Positions 3,178 through 55,871 of a stretch of 64,000 bases of DNA are shown here, one piece after another. The position numbers were made by a program, and so were the translations under genes. Under the pieces are notes generated by a model. The model had not been told where the DNA came from, searched no databases, and was given only the letters and a program-made list of their open reading frames with translations. Position 1 is the first letter of the stretch. Each line of letters begins with the position of its first letter. This stretch comes from a virus: IMG/VR virus record IMGVR_UViG_3300046005_000547, positions 1 through 64,000 of that record; one strand, written 5' to 3'.

Positions 3178-4656
3178 TTATAATGATTTGTTGACGAGTT
3201 GTCTAATTTCAGCCAACGTTGTTTCCTTGACCAATTTTCCATCTTTGAATACAACTTCTAAACATCCATGTTTTTCTTGTTTTGCATCAACGTCGTCATT
3301 CAATGTATATTGTCCATTTTCATGAGATACCATCAACAATCCTTTGGCAGATTTTTTGGTTCCATCAGAATCCGTTTTTGGGTCTTTGAAAATTGGTTTA
3401 CCAACTCCATTAACCTTGACGTATGTGGACTTAAACGCAATTCCGAAACTATCTCTTGAGACCATTCCGTAAGTGTACGATCCTACTCCAAATACAATAT
3501 TGTTGGACGCAAATCCTTTTTCCATCAATTTTCGTAGGATAGTGTCCTGACGTTCTAATGTAATTGAATCACCATAGATTGCTCCGATATGTGGGTCTAA
3601 TTCTTTATATCCTTTTGAATTAATTGTACCACCGAATGTTTCCCATAAACATTCAATCAATCCTTTTTGTTCTGGAGATCTACCATTCAATACAGAATAT
3701 GTTCCGCAGATAATATCAACAGGATCCCCCGAATCTGGGCGGATTGTAAGTTTCCCGTTACGATTCATGATTGTATCTTTTAATGCGGGTAGATACTCCG
3801 TAACTAATTGCCAGAAGTCCCACGAATCGGAAACCATTGAGAAGATTCCATCTGGATAAACATCTTCAATTAAATGACGGATTGATTCCAATTCATTTTC
3901 AACTCCGTAAGAAGTCTGGGTACTATGTTCCGAGGCGGGAACCGAGCAACCAACCAATTCTTCATCGATGTTTGCTCCATAATAATCTTCAGCCAATTCA
4001 ATAGCTGGTAATGTATCAGTACCAACAGAACCCATTGCCAATACAGCAAACCCAGATACAGCAGCAGATTGTCTATTCTGCATACCTCTCATACTAAAAT
4101 CATGATTCTGAAATGGAACAAACGAATTATCATTACATGTTAATTCTGAATACTTCAAACTGGTTTTCTTGAATTCCATGTAACGTGTTGCCGAAGCGAT
4201 TCCAAGCCACATTTCACAACTCAATACAGTTTCAATGTAATTAGTCAACCAGAAGAACTCTGGGATATTATTGATTACAGTCAACAAAGGAACTTTAAAA
4301 GGAACAAACGAACCCTCTGGTAATGCTTTGATTGTGATTGGCAAATATCCCAAATCATGTAATACTCCGATATGCGATACATCAACATCAGAATTCAACA
4401 TTTTATCAACAAATCGTTTGTATCGTTTTACGACTTGGTCTCTTGGTTTAGAAAAGAATGATGTATTCCATTCATCAATTAGATATTCCTTTACAAAATG
4501 TTGTAATCCAACAAAATAAACACCTTTACAATCTTTGATTCCTGAATGTTTACCAGAACGAGCGGTGAAGTTTGAATAAACGACTTCCGTACCTTGGATG
4601 TATTGTTTGATGTGTCCTAATTTATAAGCATCTGTTTGTAATAATGCGTTGTTCAT
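3178..4656 (-). CDS. nadV: Nicotinamide phosphoribosyltransferase (NAMPT/NadV family)
   Basis: This 492-residue enzyme belongs to the NAMPT family, which joins nicotinamide to PRPP to give NMN in cytoplasmic NAD+ salvage. The sequence shows the N-terminal TDAYKLGH motif, FTARSGK, the catalytic-His segment EHSTQTSYG (His244), RPDSGDP (306-312), and the C-terminal SRDSFGIAFKSTYV. Length and motifs are those of full-length active members. A PRPP-synthetase-family gene lies three genes upstream in the same transcriptional direction, so substrate supply and use are linked. The same two folds make up the NARP1 pathway (Adps and Namat), which rebuilds NAD+ from ADP-ribose during infection, and sequence alone does not decide between the two. 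A strong terminator follows. Confidence 0.93.
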   Translation of the reverse strand: MNNALLQTDAYKLGHIKQYIQGTEVVYSNFTARSGKHSGIKDCKGVYFVGLQHFVKEYLIDEWNTSFFSKPRDQVVKRYKRFVDKMLNSDVDVSHIGVLHDLGYLPITIKALPEGSFVPFKVPLLTVINNIPEFFWLTNYIETVLSCEMWLGIASATRYMEFKKTSLKYSELTCNDNSFVPFQNHDFSMRGMQNRQSAAVSGFAVLAMGSVGTDTLPAIELAEDYYGANIDEELVGCSVPASEHSTQTSYGVENELESIRHLIEDVYPDGIFSMVSDSWDFWQLVTEYLPALKDTIMNRNGKLTIRPDSGDPVDIICGTYSVLNGRSPEQKGLIECLWETFGGTINSKGYKELDPHIGAIYGDSITLERQDTILRKLMEKGFASNNIVFGVGSYTYGMVSRDSFGIAFKSTYVKVNGVGKPIFKDPKTDSDGTKKSAKGLLMVSHENGQYTLNDDVDAKQEKHGCLEVVFKDGKLVKETTLAEIRQLVNKSL

Positions 4657-5492: not shown

Positions 5493-5705
5493 TTATACTC
5501 CGAAAACATCATTAACAAATAAACGAGGATCTTCATTTTCATCATCATAGAACGAATTTGTTGTGATAATTAAATCAATACCATCATCAAACAATACATC
5601 TAATCCTTTTGAGAAGATTCCATGTGTTGCGTACAAATACACTTTACCAACATTACGTTGTTTCAACACTTTGACAATTTCTTGGAAGGTTCTACCACCG
5701 TCGTA
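5493..5705 (-). pseudogene. Remnant of the original 3' end of prs
   Basis: A reading frame of about 70 codons, closed by a stop at each end, begins YDGGRTFQEIVKVLKQ and matches the last quarter of the PRPP-synthetase-family protein encoded at 6688-7542. Shared blocks are GGRTF, QRNVGK, YLY-THGIF and IITTNSF. It has no start codon or ribosome site. It starts exactly inside the PRPP-binding loop (VDDICSGGRTF in the intact gene). I read it as the original C-terminal coding end of prs, cut off when the HNH gene and a different prs 3' end were inserted. It abuts the HAD gene, whose ribosome site lies within it. Confidence 0.85.
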
Positions 5706-5745
5706 TTAAATAATTTTATCATAATTTATATAAAAGGAAAAAGTA

Positions 5746-6687
5746 ATGGAAAATTTAAAAGATTTTTTATATCAACAATTATCATCCAAATCTAAAAATA
5801 ATTTTTACACTAAGCGATATATCAATTTCATGATTTCTAGAAACGATAAACCAAAAAATGTATATACGGAATTGCATCATATTTTACCAAAAGCGAAAAC
5901 TCAATTTCCAGAATATAAAAATCTTGTAAAATACCCTTGGAATGGGATCGAATTAACTGGACAAGAACATTTTATAGCACATTGGTTATTATGGAAATCG
6001 CAAGGCGGTTTTATGGCATACGCATTTATTGGTATGAGAAGGTGTAATGATTATCAAACTGATAGATATTTTAAAATTAATGGAAAATCGTACGAAAAAT
6101 TAAAAGAAGATGCATCTGCTGCGCAATCTAATAGAATAATTTTAGAATCCACCAGACAAAAGATTTCCATATCAAATAAATCTAGACCAAAAGGTGTGTG
6201 TCCTCATTGTAATATAGAAATGGATATTTCTAATTTAAAAAAATACCATTTAGATAATTGTAAAGTTTTTACTGGTAAATTGGTTCATGATATTAAACAA
6301 AATTTAGAAATAGGGAATTGTCCTCATTGTGGATTAGAAGGTAAAATGCAAGGATTATTGGCAACCCATTTTGACCATTGTCCAAAAATAAATAATTCTA
6401 GGAAAATAACTAAATTTTTTGATTGTCCTCATTGTAATAAAACTTTACCAGATACGCAAAATGTTAGAAATTTACATTTTGATAATTGTACTGTTTTCAC
6501 GGGTATTAAAAGAGAACCTAGTGATAAATTTAAAGCAGCAAATTCAAAAAGAGGTAAACCTGGGGTACCTAAACCAAAAATACAATGCCCTCATTGTAAT
6601 CATATAGGCACCCCAAAACGTATGTTACAAAATCATTTTGATAATTGCATTGCTAAAACAGATTCTAATTTAGATAATTTTATGTAA
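5746..6687 (+). CDS. HNH homing endonuclease with four zinc-finger-like repeats
   Basis: A 313-residue homing endonuclease on the strand opposite its neighbours. The HNH nuclease domain is N-terminal (ELHHILPKA near residue 45, then GIELTGQEHFIAHWLLWK). The rest contains four spaced modules of the form Cys-Pro-His-Cys followed by His and Asp-x-Cys (from about residue 152 to 300), which look like CCHC zinc fingers for DNA recognition. AAGGAAAAAG precedes the start. Its stop lies directly against the stop of prs, facing it. It shares its N-terminal fold and many residues with the HNH protein at 53,408. The insertion splits prs (see the remnant at 5493). Confidence 0.92.
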   Translation: MENLKDFLYQQLSSKSKNNFYTKRYINFMISRNDKPKNVYTELHHILPKAKTQFPEYKNLVKYPWNGIELTGQEHFIAHWLLWKSQGGFMAYAFIGMRRCNDYQTDRYFKINGKSYEKLKEDASAAQSNRIILESTRQKISISNKSRPKGVCPHCNIEMDISNLKKYHLDNCKVFTGKLVHDIKQNLEIGNCPHCGLEGKMQGLLATHFDHCPKINNSRKITKFFDCPHCNKTLPDTQNVRNLHFDNCTVFTGIKREPSDKFKAANSKRGKPGVPKPKIQCPHCNHIGTPKRMLQNHFDNCIAKTDSNLDNFM

Positions 6688-7542
6688 CTAATTAAAAATT
6701 TCAATAATATGCAATCTTTCATGGTTTGAATTTTCTATAAAAGAATTTGTCGTAATGATTTTACATATACCTGAATCTAAAATTGGAATGATTCCAATAT
6801 CAAAAATTCCATGAGTTACGTAAAGATATATTTTACCAACATTTCTTTGTGATAGAATTTTAGATATTTCGATAAAAGTTCTACCACCTGAACAGATGTC
6901 GTCTACAATCAATACGTCTTTACCATTGAAATCATCTCTATACACTTCTGTTCTGATGATATGACCGGACGAATCCCTTTCTTTATTTGCTTGGACAACA
7001 TCCAATGAAAGTTTAGATGCCAATTTGTAAATCTTTTTAGATGCACCAAAATCTGGCGATAATAACACTAGATTATCTAAATTGATTTTATCATCCAATT
7101 CATCAATACATTCAGAAGCAATTTGGTATTGTTCAATGTTGATAATGTTATCAAATAAAGCCAGAGATGTATCTGAATGTACATCAAATGTAACAATTCG
7201 ATTGTAATTTTGATTGTTGATTAAATCAGCAAACACTTTCAATGATAATGATTCGCCGTCGTCAGACACTTTATCTTGTCTAGCATACGGTAAATAAGGA
7301 GTGACCAATGTTAATGGTATCTTAGAACCATAATGTAATCTTAATGCGTTTGTTACCATCAACAATTCCATGATGTCATCAGATGATTTAAGTCTGGTCT
7401 GAATTTCAACTTCATATACATTTTTTGGAGTATTCTTCAATTGTACATGAACTTCTCCACCAGAGAATTTGAAGAAATTAACATCTTTCAATACTGCATT
7501 AGATGAATCATCTGTTAGAAAATTTAAACTTACGATACTCAT
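6688..7542 (-). CDS. prs: Ribose-phosphate pyrophosphokinase family protein (Prs-like), hybrid 3' end
   Basis: A 284-residue PRPP-synthetase-family enzyme. Visible signatures are the catalytic loop PYLPYARQDK (82-91), FDVHSDTSLALFDNI (about 119-133) and the PRPP-binding loop LIVDDICSGGRTF (211-223). The classical reaction makes PRPP from ribose 5-phosphate and ATP; the homologous phage enzyme Adps instead pyrophosphorylates ADP-ribose. With nadV downstream it belongs to a phage NAD+ module. The last about 65 codons are richer in A and T than the rest and closer in style to the adjacent HNH gene. A diverged second copy of the same end lies beyond that gene. I infer the present 3' end arrived together with the endonuclease. 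Confidence 0.9.
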   Translation of the reverse strand: MSIVSLNFLTDDSSNAVLKDVNFFKFSGGEVHVQLKNTPKNVYEVEIQTRLKSSDDIMELLMVTNALRLHYGSKIPLTLVTPYLPYARQDKVSDDGESLSLKVFADLINNQNYNRIVTFDVHSDTSLALFDNIINIEQYQIASECIDELDDKINLDNLVLLSPDFGASKKIYKLASKLSLDVVQANKERDSSGHIIRTEVYRDDFNGKDVLIVDDICSGGRTFIEISKILSQRNVGKIYLYVTHGIFDIGIIPILDSGICKIITTNSFIENSNHERLHIIEIFN

Positions 7543-9218: not shown

Positions 9219-9284
9219 TTTATACCACCTTTGTAATTGATTTAGATTGATTTAAGTTCATTGGATTCTTCCAACTTGAAATCT
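9219..9284 (-). promoter_or_regulatory. Early-operon 5' leader with hairpin
   Basis: The untranslated leader carries TTGGA-AGAA-TCCAA, a small hairpin close to the predicted 5' end, then AACTTAAATC and an AAAGGTGG ribosome site. The same leader, with few changes, precedes the gene at 28,422. It may stabilise the mRNA. Confidence 0.6.
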
Positions 9285-9312
9285 ATTATAATGATTTTTC
9301 TTATCATCGAAA
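9285..9312 (-). promoter_or_regulatory. Early-type promoter (TTTCGA-N16-TATAAT)
   Basis: On the minus strand TTTCGA is followed after 16 bases by TATAAT and AGATTTC. The same arrangement recurs before many operons in this window. It drives the TerD operon. Confidence 0.8.
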
Positions 9313-9342
9313 GAAAAATCTTATTAAATTTTAAACAAAAAG

Positions 9343-25674: not shown

Positions 25675-28266
25675 TTATCCGAAGAACTCATCCAAATTTG
25701 ATTTTGCTTCAGTGTTCCATCCCAAAGGTTCAATCATATTCTTCATCTTAGACAAAAATGCCTTCTCAAACTGTAAATCATAATCAACAAATCTATCCAA
25801 ACCAAATTCCTTTGGAATATCATCAACAAACGCAATCACATTTTCCTTCAACGGATTTGGTGTCTTCAGATACGTAAATTTAATCTTATCACCATTCTTA
25901 ATCAATTGATGCGTCTTCTCCAATCCATGTTTCTTAATCATCTGATTGTACATGATTGAACCTCTAACGTGAATAGGTGTTCCTGATGCGTATCCACTTG
26001 GAGTCACAAATTTATCAATATCAGATACACCAGATGGATTAGCAATTTCTGGTATAGACATATTCATGAATTGAGTTTTAATTCCCTCAACATATGAATG
26101 AATATCTGATTCTTCCTTGTAGAATAAAATTGGTAATGATTCCTTCAATAATGATCTAATCAATTTTGGTGTTGATGATTTAACTAGGTCTAATCCCATG
26201 ACCTTCAATTTTGGTTTCTCGTATCTAACTCCCTCTGATTCCCATACGTTAATCGCGTAACGTTTCTTCGAAATCCACACACCTACGTCAAAAATGCACT
26301 CGAGTTTCATCGACATCTTGTTTTCGTATGCGTGCATATAATCAGTCATATTATCGAATGATTTCTTAATAACATTTTGTAACACTTTTGTACAGAATTC
26401 ATTTAAGAAATCAGTAGTTTCCTGAATAGATTTATCAGAATATCCTGCCATCTCAACAAGTTTTATCAATTCAATGTAAATACTATCCGTATCACTATAT
26501 GCAACATAATCAACATTAGATGTTTTTAATGATTTATTCAAAAATGCATTAACATCATTGGCAACCCATTGGATAGCAAGCCGTCCACCTGACGTAATAC
26601 TCTCAGCCATTCTAACATCGAAGTATCTAAAGTATGGCGAACCCAGCGATCCGTACGCCGAATTTAATAAAATTTTTAATGCCATTTGGAAAATATACAA
26701 TCTTGAAATCTCTTTTTCAAGATGTTTCTTCATTTTTTCATCAGTAGCAGATTCATATTCTTTTTCTAATGAAATTTGTTGTTTCTTTTTAGTAGATCTA
26801 TCAACATACATGTTATCCATTAACACAGAGAAGAAACATTTTACATCTTTACGATAACACCAACCATTAGCGGCAATCGATAATCCATTATCAGGTAATT
26901 CTTTTTTAGCTAACAAATAATCAACATCAATGTCTAATTTTGTTGAAGTTAATGTTTCAACACCTACATTATAATGTTGAATTAAATGAGGATACAAAGA
27001 TGCCAAATCGAACGATACACCCCATTTATATCTTCCAGGTTTGGGTTGTTTAACATACGCACCATCAAATTGTTCCGTTTTACCTCCATATGTTTGAAAT
27101 GGAGTGACTACAGAACGTTCTTCTTTAAGATAATTATGGATGATTGCATCCCAAGTATGAATAGGAGAAAATACATCTTCATAATTGATTCTGGCGTAAT
27201 ACGCGATGAACACTTGTAAAGAAATCATATTGAGTTTCTCTTCAAGTTGAATAATCAAATCTGCGTCGATGATGTTATAATCAGTGAATTTGTTCCAGCA
27301 TTTTTGTTTCAGTTCCGAATTTAGATTTATCCATTCTTCAGAAATATCTGGATGGAGATTACGTTCATACGCTAATTGTTGAAGTTCGTTACCATTTTTA
27401 TCTGGTTTTGGTTCTCCAGTGACAAAATCATTAAATGTTAAGAATTCATCATGATTCAATTTAGCATGACCAAGAACTTTCTCTGCGATGGCATCTAATT
27501 TATAGGATTCTTCGGAACCATATGAATACTTTTTGTATAGAGCAAGATAATCTAATTGAGAGATACCAAATATATTAACAGTGCATCTATCTGGTTGTTT
27601 GTTGTCAATTTTTACTTTGACTACACCCCATGGAGATAATTGACTGGTTGTTTTTTCACCGAGGACAGCAACCATTCTATGATAGATGTACGGGATATCG
27701 AAGAAGTCTGTGTTCCAACCAGTGATTATGTCAGGAATGTTTTCCTTCCAGAACGATAAGAATTCTCTGAATAGATGTTCTTCATTATCGCATTGATGAT
27801 AGATTACATTTTGGTCTGATGTATATGATTTACAACCCCAAGTATGTTTCTGTTTGGATTGCATATCGACAATTGTAATTAGGACAACTTCTTCGACAGG
27901 ATTGAACCAGTTGGGGAAGCCGTGGACTACAGATGTCTCTGCATCTAACGCATAGATTTTAACTTTCTCAAAATCATAACTTGTTACAATTGAATTTTCA
28001 TATCGTTCAGAAAGGAATTGGTCACACCATGAAGTATATCCATATAATTTTACACCAGAAATTCCTTTATATTGTTCAATGAATTCTTTACAGTCTTTGA
28101 TGGTTCCAGGTTTGATTTCATGTACAGGAATATCATCTAATGTCTTCCATTTTGTTGATTGATTTTTACCAGTCATGAATAATGTTGGTTGAAATTCAAT
28201 GATTTCTTTACCTTCTGGAGTTCTTAGATAGACATTATTTCCTGATACATAAGCATTTGTGTACAT
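25675..28266 (-). CDS. 43: DNA polymerase (gp43)
   Basis: A family B replicative polymerase of 863 residues, near T4 gp43 (898). The N-terminal 3'-5' exonuclease has ALDAETSVV (Exo I), GWNTDFFDIPY (Exo II) and a YNIIDADLI Exo III. Polymerase motifs are FDLASLYPHLIQHYN (motif A), KILLNSAYGSLGSPYF (motif B) and YSDTDSIYI (motif C). KKRYAINVW follows in the thumb. I chose the Met of MYTNAYVSG with AAGGAAAAAT upstream. An open extension of 34 codons exists but lies in the leader. It works with gp45, gp44 and gp62 encoded at 34.7-37.0 kb. Confidence 0.97.
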   Translation of the reverse strand: MYTNAYVSGNNVYLRTPEGKEIIEFQPTLFMTGKNQSTKWKTLDDIPVHEIKPGTIKDCKEFIEQYKGISGVKLYGYTSWCDQFLSERYENSIVTSYDFEKVKIYALDAETSVVHGFPNWFNPVEEVVLITIVDMQSKQKHTWGCKSYTSDQNVIYHQCDNEEHLFREFLSFWKENIPDIITGWNTDFFDIPYIYHRMVAVLGEKTTSQLSPWGVVKVKIDNKQPDRCTVNIFGISQLDYLALYKKYSYGSEESYKLDAIAEKVLGHAKLNHDEFLTFNDFVTGEPKPDKNGNELQQLAYERNLHPDISEEWINLNSELKQKCWNKFTDYNIIDADLIIQLEEKLNMISLQVFIAYYARINYEDVFSPIHTWDAIIHNYLKEERSVVTPFQTYGGKTEQFDGAYVKQPKPGRYKWGVSFDLASLYPHLIQHYNVGVETLTSTKLDIDVDYLLAKKELPDNGLSIAANGWCYRKDVKCFFSVLMDNMYVDRSTKKKQQISLEKEYESATDEKMKKHLEKEISRLYIFQMALKILLNSAYGSLGSPYFRYFDVRMAESITSGGRLAIQWVANDVNAFLNKSLKTSNVDYVAYSDTDSIYIELIKLVEMAGYSDKSIQETTDFLNEFCTKVLQNVIKKSFDNMTDYMHAYENKMSMKLECIFDVGVWISKKRYAINVWESEGVRYEKPKLKVMGLDLVKSSTPKLIRSLLKESLPILFYKEESDIHSYVEGIKTQFMNMSIPEIANPSGVSDIDKFVTPSGYASGTPIHVRGSIMYNQMIKKHGLEKTHQLIKNGDKIKFTYLKTPNPLKENVIAFVDDIPKEFGLDRFVDYDLQFEKAFLSKMKNMIEPLGWNTEAKSNLDEFFG

Positions 28267-37281: not shown

Positions 37282-38082
37282 ATGTTAAACATAAAACAAT
37301 TGTTCGCGCAATATGGTGTAATAGTGAAAGAATCAAAATATCTTAAAATATATGAATCTTTAATGAATTCTCCTCCTGATACAGAAGGATATACCGAAAC
37401 GCATCATATAATACCAAAATGTATTTCTAACGATAACAAAAAATCTAATTTAATTGAAATTTCAGGAAGAAAACATTTTATATGTCATTACTTGTTATGT
37501 AAAATACTTGAAAAAGATACAAAATTTTGGTATAAATTAAATCACGCATTTATTAGATTTGGTTCGAATAATCTAAGTGGTAGATATTATAATTCTAGAT
37601 TATATGAATCTAAACGTAAAAATTTCTCTTCGGTTATGTCAAAATGTCAATCCGGTGAATTAAATTCACAATACGGTAAAATATGGATTTGTCATCCATA
37701 TTCAATTAAACCAACCATAATTTCACCAAATATGTTTGATGAATACTATAATCAAGGATGGTTATTAGGTAGGACAATAAAACATCCAAAAATTAAAAAA
37801 ATTTCTAAACGCGAAATGGAAAATTATGTAGATCCATATAAAGAAAGAGCATTAAAAACAATTTCTTTATTTTTATCTGGTGAATTTTATTCGATAAAAG
37901 AATTTGTAGAAACATCCAATGACAACACTTTAACAGTAAGCAATTTATCTGTACTATGGAGTTCAAAATTTCCTGATTATAAATCGTTCGCAAAATCAAA
38001 TATGGGTGTTAGGAAATCTTCAAAATATTGTAGAGAGTTCCTAAATCATTTAATTGACGACAAATTTATAGAATTAAATTAA
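37282..38082 (+). CDS. HNH homing endonuclease
   Basis: A 266-residue HNH homing endonuclease on the strand opposite its neighbours. The nuclease core is near residues 40-75 (TETHHIIPKCISNDNKKSN and GRKHFICHYLL). A recognition module KIWICHPYSIKPTI ending in YYNQGWLLGRT follows, then a basic helical C-terminus. No clear ribosome site is seen. Similar 15-bp sequences flank the gene, and it lies between gene 45 and its neighbour, a gap between conserved genes typical of homing insertions. Confidence 0.88.
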   Translation: MLNIKQLFAQYGVIVKESKYLKIYESLMNSPPDTEGYTETHHIIPKCISNDNKKSNLIEISGRKHFICHYLLCKILEKDTKFWYKLNHAFIRFGSNNLSGRYYNSRLYESKRKNFSSVMSKCQSGELNSQYGKIWICHPYSIKPTIISPNMFDEYYNQGWLLGRTIKHPKIKKISKREMENYVDPYKERALKTISLFLSGEFYSIKEFVETSNDNTLTVSNLSVLWSSKFPDYKSFAKSNMGVRKSSKYCREFLNHLIDDKFIELN

Positions 38083-53407: not shown

Positions 53408-54667
53408 ATGGAAATTTTAGACTTGTTATTATCAAAATCGTGTAATGTACATTATGTAAAACGATATTACAAATTTATAAATTATTGCAAAGAACAAAAT
53501 AAAAATTTAATTGACGAATATACAGAAACACACCACATTTTACCAAAAGCAGAAGATTTGTTTCCGGAGTATGAAAATTTAAAAGAATATCCTTGGAATT
53601 ATATAGAATTGACATTTAAACAACATTTAATCGCTCATGTTATTTTATGGAAATCTTATAAAGGATCCCAATCAATGGCATTAGAATGTATGTTGGGTAA
53701 TTTTAATTCAGAAACAAATTCATTATTATCTCATAGAAAAATACCAACTAAAACTAAATTACAATTTTTAGATAAAGTTAAAAAAGACGCAAACCTTAGA
53801 AGAAGTGTAGTCCAACAAGGATATGCAACATATAAAGATTCATCCGATAACAAATACTTCTTACATTATTCGGATCCAAAGATACAAGAATTGAATTTGG
53901 TTGGTAATAATACTGGATTATTACATTCCGAAGACACAAAATTAAAAATGTCTGAATCTAAATTGAAATATAGAATGGTTGAATTATTTTTCTTAGATAA
54001 TTCAGTTAATGTTAGATTGATGTCGCCAGAATATGTTGAATACCTTAATCAAGGATGGGTTGTTGGATTAACAGGAGAAGATAGAACATATCGAGATGGA
54101 TTGAAATATGAAAAGGTTTCTGCTTCAATGGAAAATAGATATGCATATTTGTACCCTAATGGAGATTATTATGGTTATATTAACATAGACGATCCTGTGA
54201 TTAAAGAAATAGGATTGATACAGAAACCAAAGACTGATAAACAGATGGAACAATATGAATCTATTTCAAGGATGGGTGCAGAATACAACAAAAATAAATG
54301 TGCATATAATAATGGAGAAATTGAACGTAATTATACTCCAGGAACTGAACCAGAAGGATGGGTTAAAGGGGGATTGACTAGAAAACCGTATGAGATTGTT
54401 GTAACTCAAAATGGTTCAACTATGTGGAATGATGGTGTTAAAAATTATAGAATAAAAGATGGAGAATTCCCTAAAGAAGGGTGGATTCGAGGTATAATAA
54501 CTAAAAAACGAGATAAACCTGTACATAATAAAAATAAGGTAAAGATTGTAAATATCAAAGATAAAACAGATTATAGATTTATCGTTTTGGATGAACATTA
54601 TGAATTACCAGAAGGTTATAAATTTTGTAATAATAAAAATATCTCTAGATTAAAGAAAAGTATATAA
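53408..54667 (+). CDS. HNH homing endonuclease with DNA-recognition repeats
   Basis: A 419-residue homing endonuclease. The HNH core (ETHHILPKAEDLFPEYENL and YIELTFKQHLIAHVILWK, residues about 39-80) is close to that of the protein at 5746. Four or five modules follow, each ending in Gly-Trp-x-x-Gly or similar (VEYLNQGWVVGL, GTEPEGWVKGG, FPKEGWIRGII). They are known from phage homing enzymes as DNA-contact repeats. The C-terminus (YELPEGYKFCNN) is shared with the GIY-YIG protein that follows. AAGAGGAGAA precedes the start. It lies just after gene 23. Confidence 0.9.
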   Translation: MEILDLLLSKSCNVHYVKRYYKFINYCKEQNKNLIDEYTETHHILPKAEDLFPEYENLKEYPWNYIELTFKQHLIAHVILWKSYKGSQSMALECMLGNFNSETNSLLSHRKIPTKTKLQFLDKVKKDANLRRSVVQQGYATYKDSSDNKYFLHYSDPKIQELNLVGNNTGLLHSEDTKLKMSESKLKYRMVELFFLDNSVNVRLMSPEYVEYLNQGWVVGLTGEDRTYRDGLKYEKVSASMENRYAYLYPNGDYYGYINIDDPVIKEIGLIQKPKTDKQMEQYESISRMGAEYNKNKCAYNNGEIERNYTPGTEPEGWVKGGLTRKPYEIVVTQNGSTMWNDGVKNYRIKDGEFPKEGWIRGIITKKRDKPVHNKNKVKIVNIKDKTDYRFIVLDEHYELPEGYKFCNNKNISRLKKSI

Positions 54668-54686: not shown

Positions 54687-55871
54687 ATGAGATTTTATAT
54701 TATGGAAAGTGAATTTACACCAAGAAGATTATACATTAAACAACATTCTGTTACTGGAATGAGATACTTTGGACAGACTGTATCTGAAGATATAGACAAA
54801 TACAAAGGTTCAGGAACGTATTGGGTTAGACATATTAAGAAACATGGAGTTGAACATGTAATCAACGAATGGATTTCAGAATGGTTCTATGAACCAGAAA
54901 CAATAAGTGATTTTGCTTTAGAATTTTCCGAACAATATGATATTGTAAATTCAAAAGAATGGGCTAATTTAATTCCAGAAGATGGTCTAGGTGGATGGGA
55001 TAGATTTAATGATATTAGAGGGAATTACGATGAAGATTTAGCATTTATTCGTATGAAAGAAAATGGAACATATGAAGGATGGTTGGAAAAGATAACAATC
55101 GCATCAACTGGAGAAAATAATCCAGCATATGGTACAAAATGGATATTCAATCCTGATATTCCAAATTCCAGCAAATTATTATATTCTGGAGAAGAATTAC
55201 CAGAAGGATATTTGTTTGGTATGGATTTCGAACGCAGACAAAAGATGGTTGAATCTAATGTTGGTAAAAATTTAGGTTCTAAATTATATTACAACCCAGA
55301 AACATTAGAAACAGTTAGAATACAATTAAATCAACAAATACCAGAAGGATATATTAATGGTATTGGTATGACGGAAGAACAAAGAACAGAATGGTCTGGA
55401 GATCGTTCTGGTGAAAATAATGGCAATTATGGAAAACATCCATATTATAATTATGAAACTGATGAAATAATGTATTTTGAATCGGACGAAACTGCTCAAG
55501 AAGGATTCACCAAAGGATTACCATCAACCCAATATAATAGTATTAGAGGAGAAAATAATCCAAAATATGGTAGTGATTGGTATTATCATCCCGTAACTAT
55601 GCATGAATTTTTAATGAATCTTAAAGATAAACATTTGTATCCTGAATACATTAAAGGTAGACCATCAAATTCATCGGATGAACGTAAAGCAAAATTAAAA
55701 GCAGCAAGAGCAAATTCTGCGATATCCTTTAAAGGACAAGCACAAATTGTTAACATAAACGATTCAAAAGATATAAAATGGTTTGACGTAGTTAATGAAT
55801 ATGAACTACCAGAAGGATATAAATTTAGAAATGAGAAAAATGCTTTGAAATTAAAGAAAAGAGATGTATAA
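54687..55871 (+). CDS. GIY-YIG-like (Seg-type) homing endonuclease
   Basis: A 394-residue protein whose N-terminus (RRLYIKQHSVTGMRYFGQT and KYKGSGTYWVRHIKKHG) is the degenerate GIY-YIG domain of phage Seg-type nucleases. Four modules follow, each like Y-Y-N-x-E-T and PEGY-x-x-G, then the same C-terminal YELPEGYKFRNEKN motif as the HNH protein upstream. No clear ribosome site is seen; a Met five codons later is an alternative start. Two nucleases of different class sharing one recognition region suggests exchange of catalytic heads. Confidence 0.87.
   Translation: MRFYIMESEFTPRRLYIKQHSVTGMRYFGQTVSEDIDKYKGSGTYWVRHIKKHGVEHVINEWISEWFYEPETISDFALEFSEQYDIVNSKEWANLIPEDGLGGWDRFNDIRGNYDEDLAFIRMKENGTYEGWLEKITIASTGENNPAYGTKWIFNPDIPNSSKLLYSGEELPEGYLFGMDFERRQKMVESNVGKNLGSKLYYNPETLETVRIQLNQQIPEGYINGIGMTEEQRTEWSGDRSGENNGNYGKHPYYNYETDEIMYFESDETAQEGFTKGLPSTQYNSIRGENNPKYGSDWYYHPVTMHEFLMNLKDKHLYPEYIKGRPSNSSDERKAKLKAARANSAISFKGQAQIVNINDSKDIKWFDVVNEYELPEGYKFRNEKNALKLKKRDV

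Follow-up and report, generated by a model that had tools for sequence, protein, structure and literature searches.

An HNH homing endonuclease gene and a substitute prs 3' end at one viral locus: a putative end-replacing homing element

The prs locus and its two 3' ends

The analysed stretch of DNA (the window) comprises positions 1 to 64,000 of the IMG/VR virus record IMGVR_UViG_3300046005_000547. The whole record has 234,735 bases and encodes T4-type replication proteins, including a sliding clamp that matches the clamps of T4-like phages at up to 49%. At the locus described here lies a prs gene with a complete frame of 284 amino acids (7542-6688, minus strand), in which the Pfam PRPP-synthetase domains were matched. 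It is followed on the opposite strand by an HNH endonuclease gene, the stop of which directly adjoins the prs stop, and on the far side of this gene by a second prs 3' end (Table 1). This architecture is observed directly and was also present in a second IMG/VR contig carrying an identical stretch of 10.85 kb that covers the locus (100%).

Table 1. Features of the prs locus in the window, in the direction of prs transcription
Feature	Position	Strand	Match or composition
Native prs 5' part, PRPP-synthetase-like, codons 1-217 up to ...VDDIC	6892..7542	-	71.0% nt to L004, 642 columns
Present (substitute) prs 3' end, first codon TCA (Ser), DICSGG	6688..6891	-	57.4% nt to L004; GC3 11.8%
HNH, MobE-like homing endonuclease gene, 313 aa	5746..6687	+	phrog_655 E 4.9e-34
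Leader between remnant and HNH start, within the 1189-base insert (5703-6891)	5703..5745	+	no L004 match
Remnant: native prs 3' end, open frame from Asp-Gly-Gly	5493..5702	-	72.1% nt, 68% aa to L004 3' end

The second 3' end, called the remnant in the following, reads (Y)DGGRTFQEIVKVLKQRNVGKVYLYATHGIFSKGLDVLFDDGIDLIITTNSFYDDENEDPRLFVNDVFGV* when translated. No stop interrupts its frame, a start codon of its own is missing ahead of the loop, and its first residues are the Asp-Gly-Gly of the PRPP loop. Both prs C-termini of the window agree in 61% of amino acids over 57 residues (tblastx E 2e-20) and the two 3' ends in 72% of nucleotides over 86 bases (E 6e-7 for the whole record of 234,735 bases), so that the second C-terminus is not a chance match. 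The two loop positions enclose 1189 bases. A reading made earlier without any database search (the sequence-only reading) had already proposed a full prs C-terminus beside the HNH gene, a diverged and startless second copy beginning in the PRPP loop, and a breakpoint near 6,890. All three were recovered, with the present 3' end starting at 6891.

The HNH protein matches the MobE-like profile phrog_655 over residues 8-267, and the residues H44, H45, P48, N66, H75 and H79 are invariant in 19 members. Its N-terminal domain was predicted with a pLDDT of about 90-97, and its C-terminus carries four CPHC...H...C repeats that weakly resemble a zinc-finger array (E 0.01). No match was obtained when solved structures were searched by sequence with the HNH family. 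Judging from sequence, it is an ordinary enzyme of the MobE-like HNH type.

An intron or intein reading of the insert was rejected, as the prs frame is complete without splicing, the HNH gene lies on the opposite strand and no Rfam intron, group I introns included, was matched between 5000 and 8000 of the window up to E 1. A split-gene insertion of the Aeh1 nrdA/mobE kind was rejected for prs as well: the gene is complete with its 284 amino acids, and the fold predicted for the hybrid protein is that of a PRPP synthetase throughout (pLDDT 89.8), with PRPP synthetases as best PDB matches. This is in line with the sequence-only reading, in which the arrangement was set apart from a plain intergenic homing gene or an intron.

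Which of the two ends is native could be addressed with a related virus (record G001, 249,362 bases), in which prs is uninterrupted (locus L004) and the neighbourhood is the same as in the window. A HAD-like gene follows directly after prs in L004, and the same gene follows directly after the remnant in the window, so that the remnant adjoins the start of the next gene just as the prs end does in L004. The match of the remnant to L004 starts at GACGGTGG (position 5702, minus strand). L004 is closer to the remnant than to the present end (Table 1). Of the positions that discriminate between the two copies of the window, 46 in L004 carry the base of the remnant and 16 that of the present end (p=1.8e-4). 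If the upstream part of prs is joined to the remnant, an open frame of 286 amino acids results, with an identity to L004 of 68.2% as compared to 65.6% for the present prs. GC3 falls from 25.8% in the upstream prs to 11.8% in the present end; the remnant has 22.9% and the HNH gene 15.9%. In the trees, the N-terminal part of the window prs grouped with L004 (support 100/98), and the grouping of the remnant as native was supported moderately (82/55) for the window alone. Resting on the L004 sites, the joined frame and GC3, sequence comparison identifies the remnant as the native prs end and the present end as an arrival from elsewhere. The proposal that an insertion at the loop brought the endonuclease together with a substitute prs end, leaving the old end behind, is thereby supported by L004 and by composition, which shifts at the junction. 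It would have been refuted by relatives carrying the present 3' end rather than the remnant, and none was seen.

Two further observations concern the surroundings of the locus. A NAMPT-like nadV gene (window 3178-4656) forms a PRPP-synthetase/NAMPT pair with prs (6688-7542). In phages, look-alike pairs of this type can be NARP1 (Adps/Namat) anti-defence enzymes (PMC12774641); as the pair is related to this anti-defence pathway, homing could reshape anti-defence genes. At 9246-9339 of the window, a stretch of about 40-90 bases matches at least seven further scattered places of G001 with 78-90% identity and represents a dispersed repeat.

Recurrence at the PRPP loop and at other target genes

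A second prs case (L049/L050), consisting of two contigs from different metagenomes, was located by a survey of HNH relatives in IMG/VR. In L050, an intact prs is followed by an HNH gene on the opposite strand that overlaps the prs stop, by a remnant C-terminus and then by nadV. Compared to the window, the prs proteins are 44% and the HNH proteins 49% identical, and both remnants start at the same Asp-Gly-Gly codon. An uninterrupted relative of L050 (L154) grouped with the L050 remnant (100/78) and with the L050 N-terminal part (99/96), whereas the present end grouped with another phage, L152 (99/91). Discriminating DNA sites favoured the remnant over the present end by 36 to 16 (p=0.008). In both prs cases GC3 of the present end is shifted toward that of the HNH gene.

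The codon at which the remnants start is exactly the one that is altered in the loop. Among 80 viral prs loci, 62 encode VDDICDGG, and the Asp is conserved in at least 90% in an alignment of 31 sequences. VDDICSGG was found in only four of the 80 loci, representing three phages: the window virus (L003), L050's prs (L160/L162) and L152. At the level of DNA, the loop codon is GAT or GAC in 68 loci, TCA in three and TCG in one; TCA is present in both element-bearing prs genes and TCG in L152. The simplest reading, inferred without cutting data, is that the Ser codon protects the present prs from the enzyme. Since L152 has the Ser loop without an adjoining HNH gene, Ser is not tied to the element; L152 might represent a lineage of the donor type or one that once carried the element. 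In this part of L152 (4965-6714), the Ser-loop prs and the HAD-like gene are separated by a macro-domain-like gene.

The recurrence is established not only for the same prs codon but also for other genes. A P-loop kinase gene (L115) has the same layout of complete gene, HNH gene and remnant. Compared to ten uninterrupted relatives, the remnant is 83-88%, the N-terminal part 66-77% and the present C-terminal part 47-52% identical, and the joined frame reaches 84.5% to a relative as opposed to 63.2% for the present gene. Mirror forms, in which the 5' end is concerned, were found as well. In G001, an orphan 5' part of nadV is followed by an HNH gene and then by a complete nadV with a foreign first part. 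At 124 sites the uninterrupted nadV of the window has the same base as the orphan, as compared to 24 sites for the complete copy (p=1.9e-17). The foreign segment extends far past the site, to about nt 1270, and only in the last 200 bases does the complete copy return to 83% identity. In a gyrase-B-type gene (L080), the orphan 5' end stops just before the conserved ATP-binding N-box; in comparison with an uninterrupted relative (L245), it is 67% identical, while the present 5' end is 50% identical.

Direct duplications of gene ends flanked eight of 62 distinct HNH loci but only one of 238 other genes from the same loci (p=1.7e-5). Both flanks had to be present, with a duplication within 800 bases at E<1e-5, and several control matches at locus edges, an indexing artefact, had been removed by hand before counting. 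As the survey was seeded from relatives of the window HNH protein and included the prompting cases, it is silent on other nuclease families. Four loci (L056, L090, L071 and L113) show flanking duplications of 17-31 amino acids or 23-51 bases and count in the survey only, because they were not compared with uninterrupted relatives.

Several candidates did not qualify. A MobE-like HNH gene in G001 (242368-243615, L038/L070) splits a DNA polymerase gene that is uninterrupted in the window virus near 26730; as an end-replacement case (G001 242824) it was rejected, since the split lacks a replacement end and fits the split-gene kind of homing endonuclease gene. G000 202341 is flanked by two genuine paralogues that are present in both genomes and was rejected, and at G001 187205 no flanking duplication was found. 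Another MobE-like HNH gene of the window (53408-54667) shares a short C-terminal domain, VNI.D....F.V..EYELPEGYKFRN.KN...LKK, with a neighbour that reads as a GIY-YIG homing gene (54687-55871). This suggests domain swapping between two nuclease families, and the match at 54599-54658 was rejected as a further case because it is this common domain. Upstream of the sliding-clamp gene, different HNH genes are present in the window (37282-38082) and in G001 (L026, 5156-6355). The latter, upstream of gp45, has direct repeats of 94% identity that cover the clamp gene start and the end of its neighbour.

In deposited phages, the arrangement was not encountered. Flanks of 20 GenBank phage loci with related HNH genes showed only matches of 15-30 bases at chance level, and no phage with two prs C-termini was found at E 1e-3 (875 records, 875 places). 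Many of these 20 loci are intergenic insertions beside gp46. Where related HNH genes lie beside gp46, the two stops are close or overlapping.

Proposed mechanism and other possible histories

It is considered quite probable that the 1189-base insert is a homing element made up of the HNH endonuclease gene and a replacement 3' end of its target, although cutting, resistance, use of a homology arm and mobility are inferred. According to this proposal, the HNH enzyme would cleave a prs gene without insert at the codon of the PRPP loop (TGT|GAY GGN GG), and repair templated by a co-infecting carrier phage would copy in the whole unit. On the upstream side, recombination would proceed via the common prs 5' sequence, and on the downstream side via the 3' remnant of the carrier's prs. 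The recipient prs would then end in the 3' half of the element, with the loop codon changed from GAY to TCA (DICDGG to DICSGG), and its own old 3' half would come to lie beyond the HNH gene, where it may serve as homology arm. Because the imported 3' half has a changed loop codon, prs would stay whole and no longer be a target. The homing gene could thus reside inside prs without breaking it, since it brings a replacement for the part that is cut off. By analogy to WHO elements of yeasts (see below), the remnant probably functions as a homology arm and is more than debris. That the element is mobile at present and homes in mixed infections remains an inference. Several findings weigh against the proposal: tree support for a native remnant is moderate for the window alone, the 20 GenBank loci lack flanking duplications and no deposited phage with two prs C-termini was found, L152 has a Ser loop but no adjoining HNH gene, and the two present prs ends are not sisters.

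A history without any moving unit has to be considered, even if it is rated unlikely. The locus might result from a one-off faulty repair involving a free-standing HNH gene located next to the prs of a donor, with homology on one side and end joining or microhomology on the other. Free-standing phage homing genes are usually located beside their target and co-convert the flanks (PMC2988022), the present end of the window prs and that of the L050 prs are not nearest neighbours in the tree, and the foreign nadV segment of G001 reaches far beyond its site; all of this would be in line with such an event. It would, however, hardly account for a codon-exact identical break in two phages with prs proteins of such low identity, nor for the homologous HNH genes that adjoin or overlap the prs stop in each of them.

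Very improbable is a history in which nothing foreign was acquired and widely staggered nicks duplicated the prs 3' end, with the copies drifting apart afterwards. In that case the non-coding copy is expected to diverge; instead, the remnant is native and open and the coding copy is the outlier, and at both prs loci its GC3 approaches the value of the HNH gene. In favour of this history, single-strand nicking is described for HNH enzymes of this kind (PMC2988022), and the G001 HNH gene ahead of gp45 lies between nearly identical direct repeats. An ordinary partial duplication or recombination of prs with an HNH gene between the copies by coincidence, conceivable in view of the frequent recombination of phage genomes, can practically be dismissed given the recurrence at prs (twice at the same codon), nadV, the kinase and the gyrase-type gene and the enrichment in the survey.

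The homing element with a replacement end is therefore the preferred reading of the prs insert. The wider proposal is held with modest confidence only, being just somewhat favoured: a recurrent phage class of MobE-like HNH elements that invade conserved coding motifs and leave the gene intact through the import of re-coded, cut-resistant 3' or 5' ends, the native end being displaced and reused as homology arm in the next round.

Comparison with known systems

Free-standing homing genes of phages are thought to persist in intergenic positions, as passengers of introns or inteins, or by breaking a gene in two. The window nuclease is of the same kind as the free-standing MobE-type homing endonucleases of T4-like phages (phrog_655 profile). 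For T4-type phages, a review describes homing genes that are intergenic or split their target (Aeh1 nrdA, T4 gene 60/mobA) and does not mention a replacement end (PMC2988022). Nor are replacement ends mentioned in the passages considered from a survey of phage homing genes (PMC10448857). No phage precedent for the replacement of an end was found in the literature, limited to open-licence papers, and the arrangement appears to be new for phages and, as far as found, previously known only from fungi.

The closest likeness is to the WHO elements of the yeasts Torulaspora and Lachancea, the unit of which consists of a nuclease gene and a resistant 3' end (Coughlan et al. 2020, PMC7282813). In the model for these elements, the target is cut and repaired from a carrier, the resistant end replaces the target 3' end at each homing and the old end is displaced as second homology arm (PMC7282813). 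In both systems, an endonuclease gene lies beside a complete target with a replaced 3' end, and the old end is found beyond the nuclease gene. The window locus meets this architecture, and the trait of a native-end fragment with another end on the complete gene is met in the window, L050 and L115. Resistance by allelic sequence change would be a further likeness, and the exchange of Asp for Ser is consistent with a WHO-like cleavage of the sensitive allele only, for which no cutting data exist. WHO nucleases also carry zinc fingers; the HNH repeats of the window bear a weak likeness to zinc-finger arrays. WHO nucleases are, however, derived from inteins and their target is the nuclear yeast gene FBA1, traits that are not met by the window locus, whereas the phage nuclease is HNH/MobE-like and several phage genes are targeted in both 3' and 5' forms. 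In addition, the HNH gene and its target are oriented in opposite directions at the prs loci and in L115. The window element thus resembles WHO elements in the way it works without belonging to them, since its nuclease is HNH/MobE-like and its target is prs.

Gene hybrids with mobile open reading frames in fungal mitochondria, i.e., atp6 of Allomyces and atp6, atp9, cox2 and nad3 of Glomus (PMC3630166), are similar in that a foreign C-terminus is fused to the resident gene together with an endonuclease open reading frame, the native C-terminus is displaced downstream, and the native end is nearer to relatives than the present one. They differ in their LAGLIDADG or GIY-YIG nucleases and in residing in organelle genomes.

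An element that replaces what it destroys could enter essential active-site codons without splicing machinery. If the proposal is true, it would offer phages a way of generating mosaic genes whose breakpoints fall on catalytic motifs, and the solution known from yeast WHO elements and fungal mitochondria would have arisen again with an unrelated nuclease.
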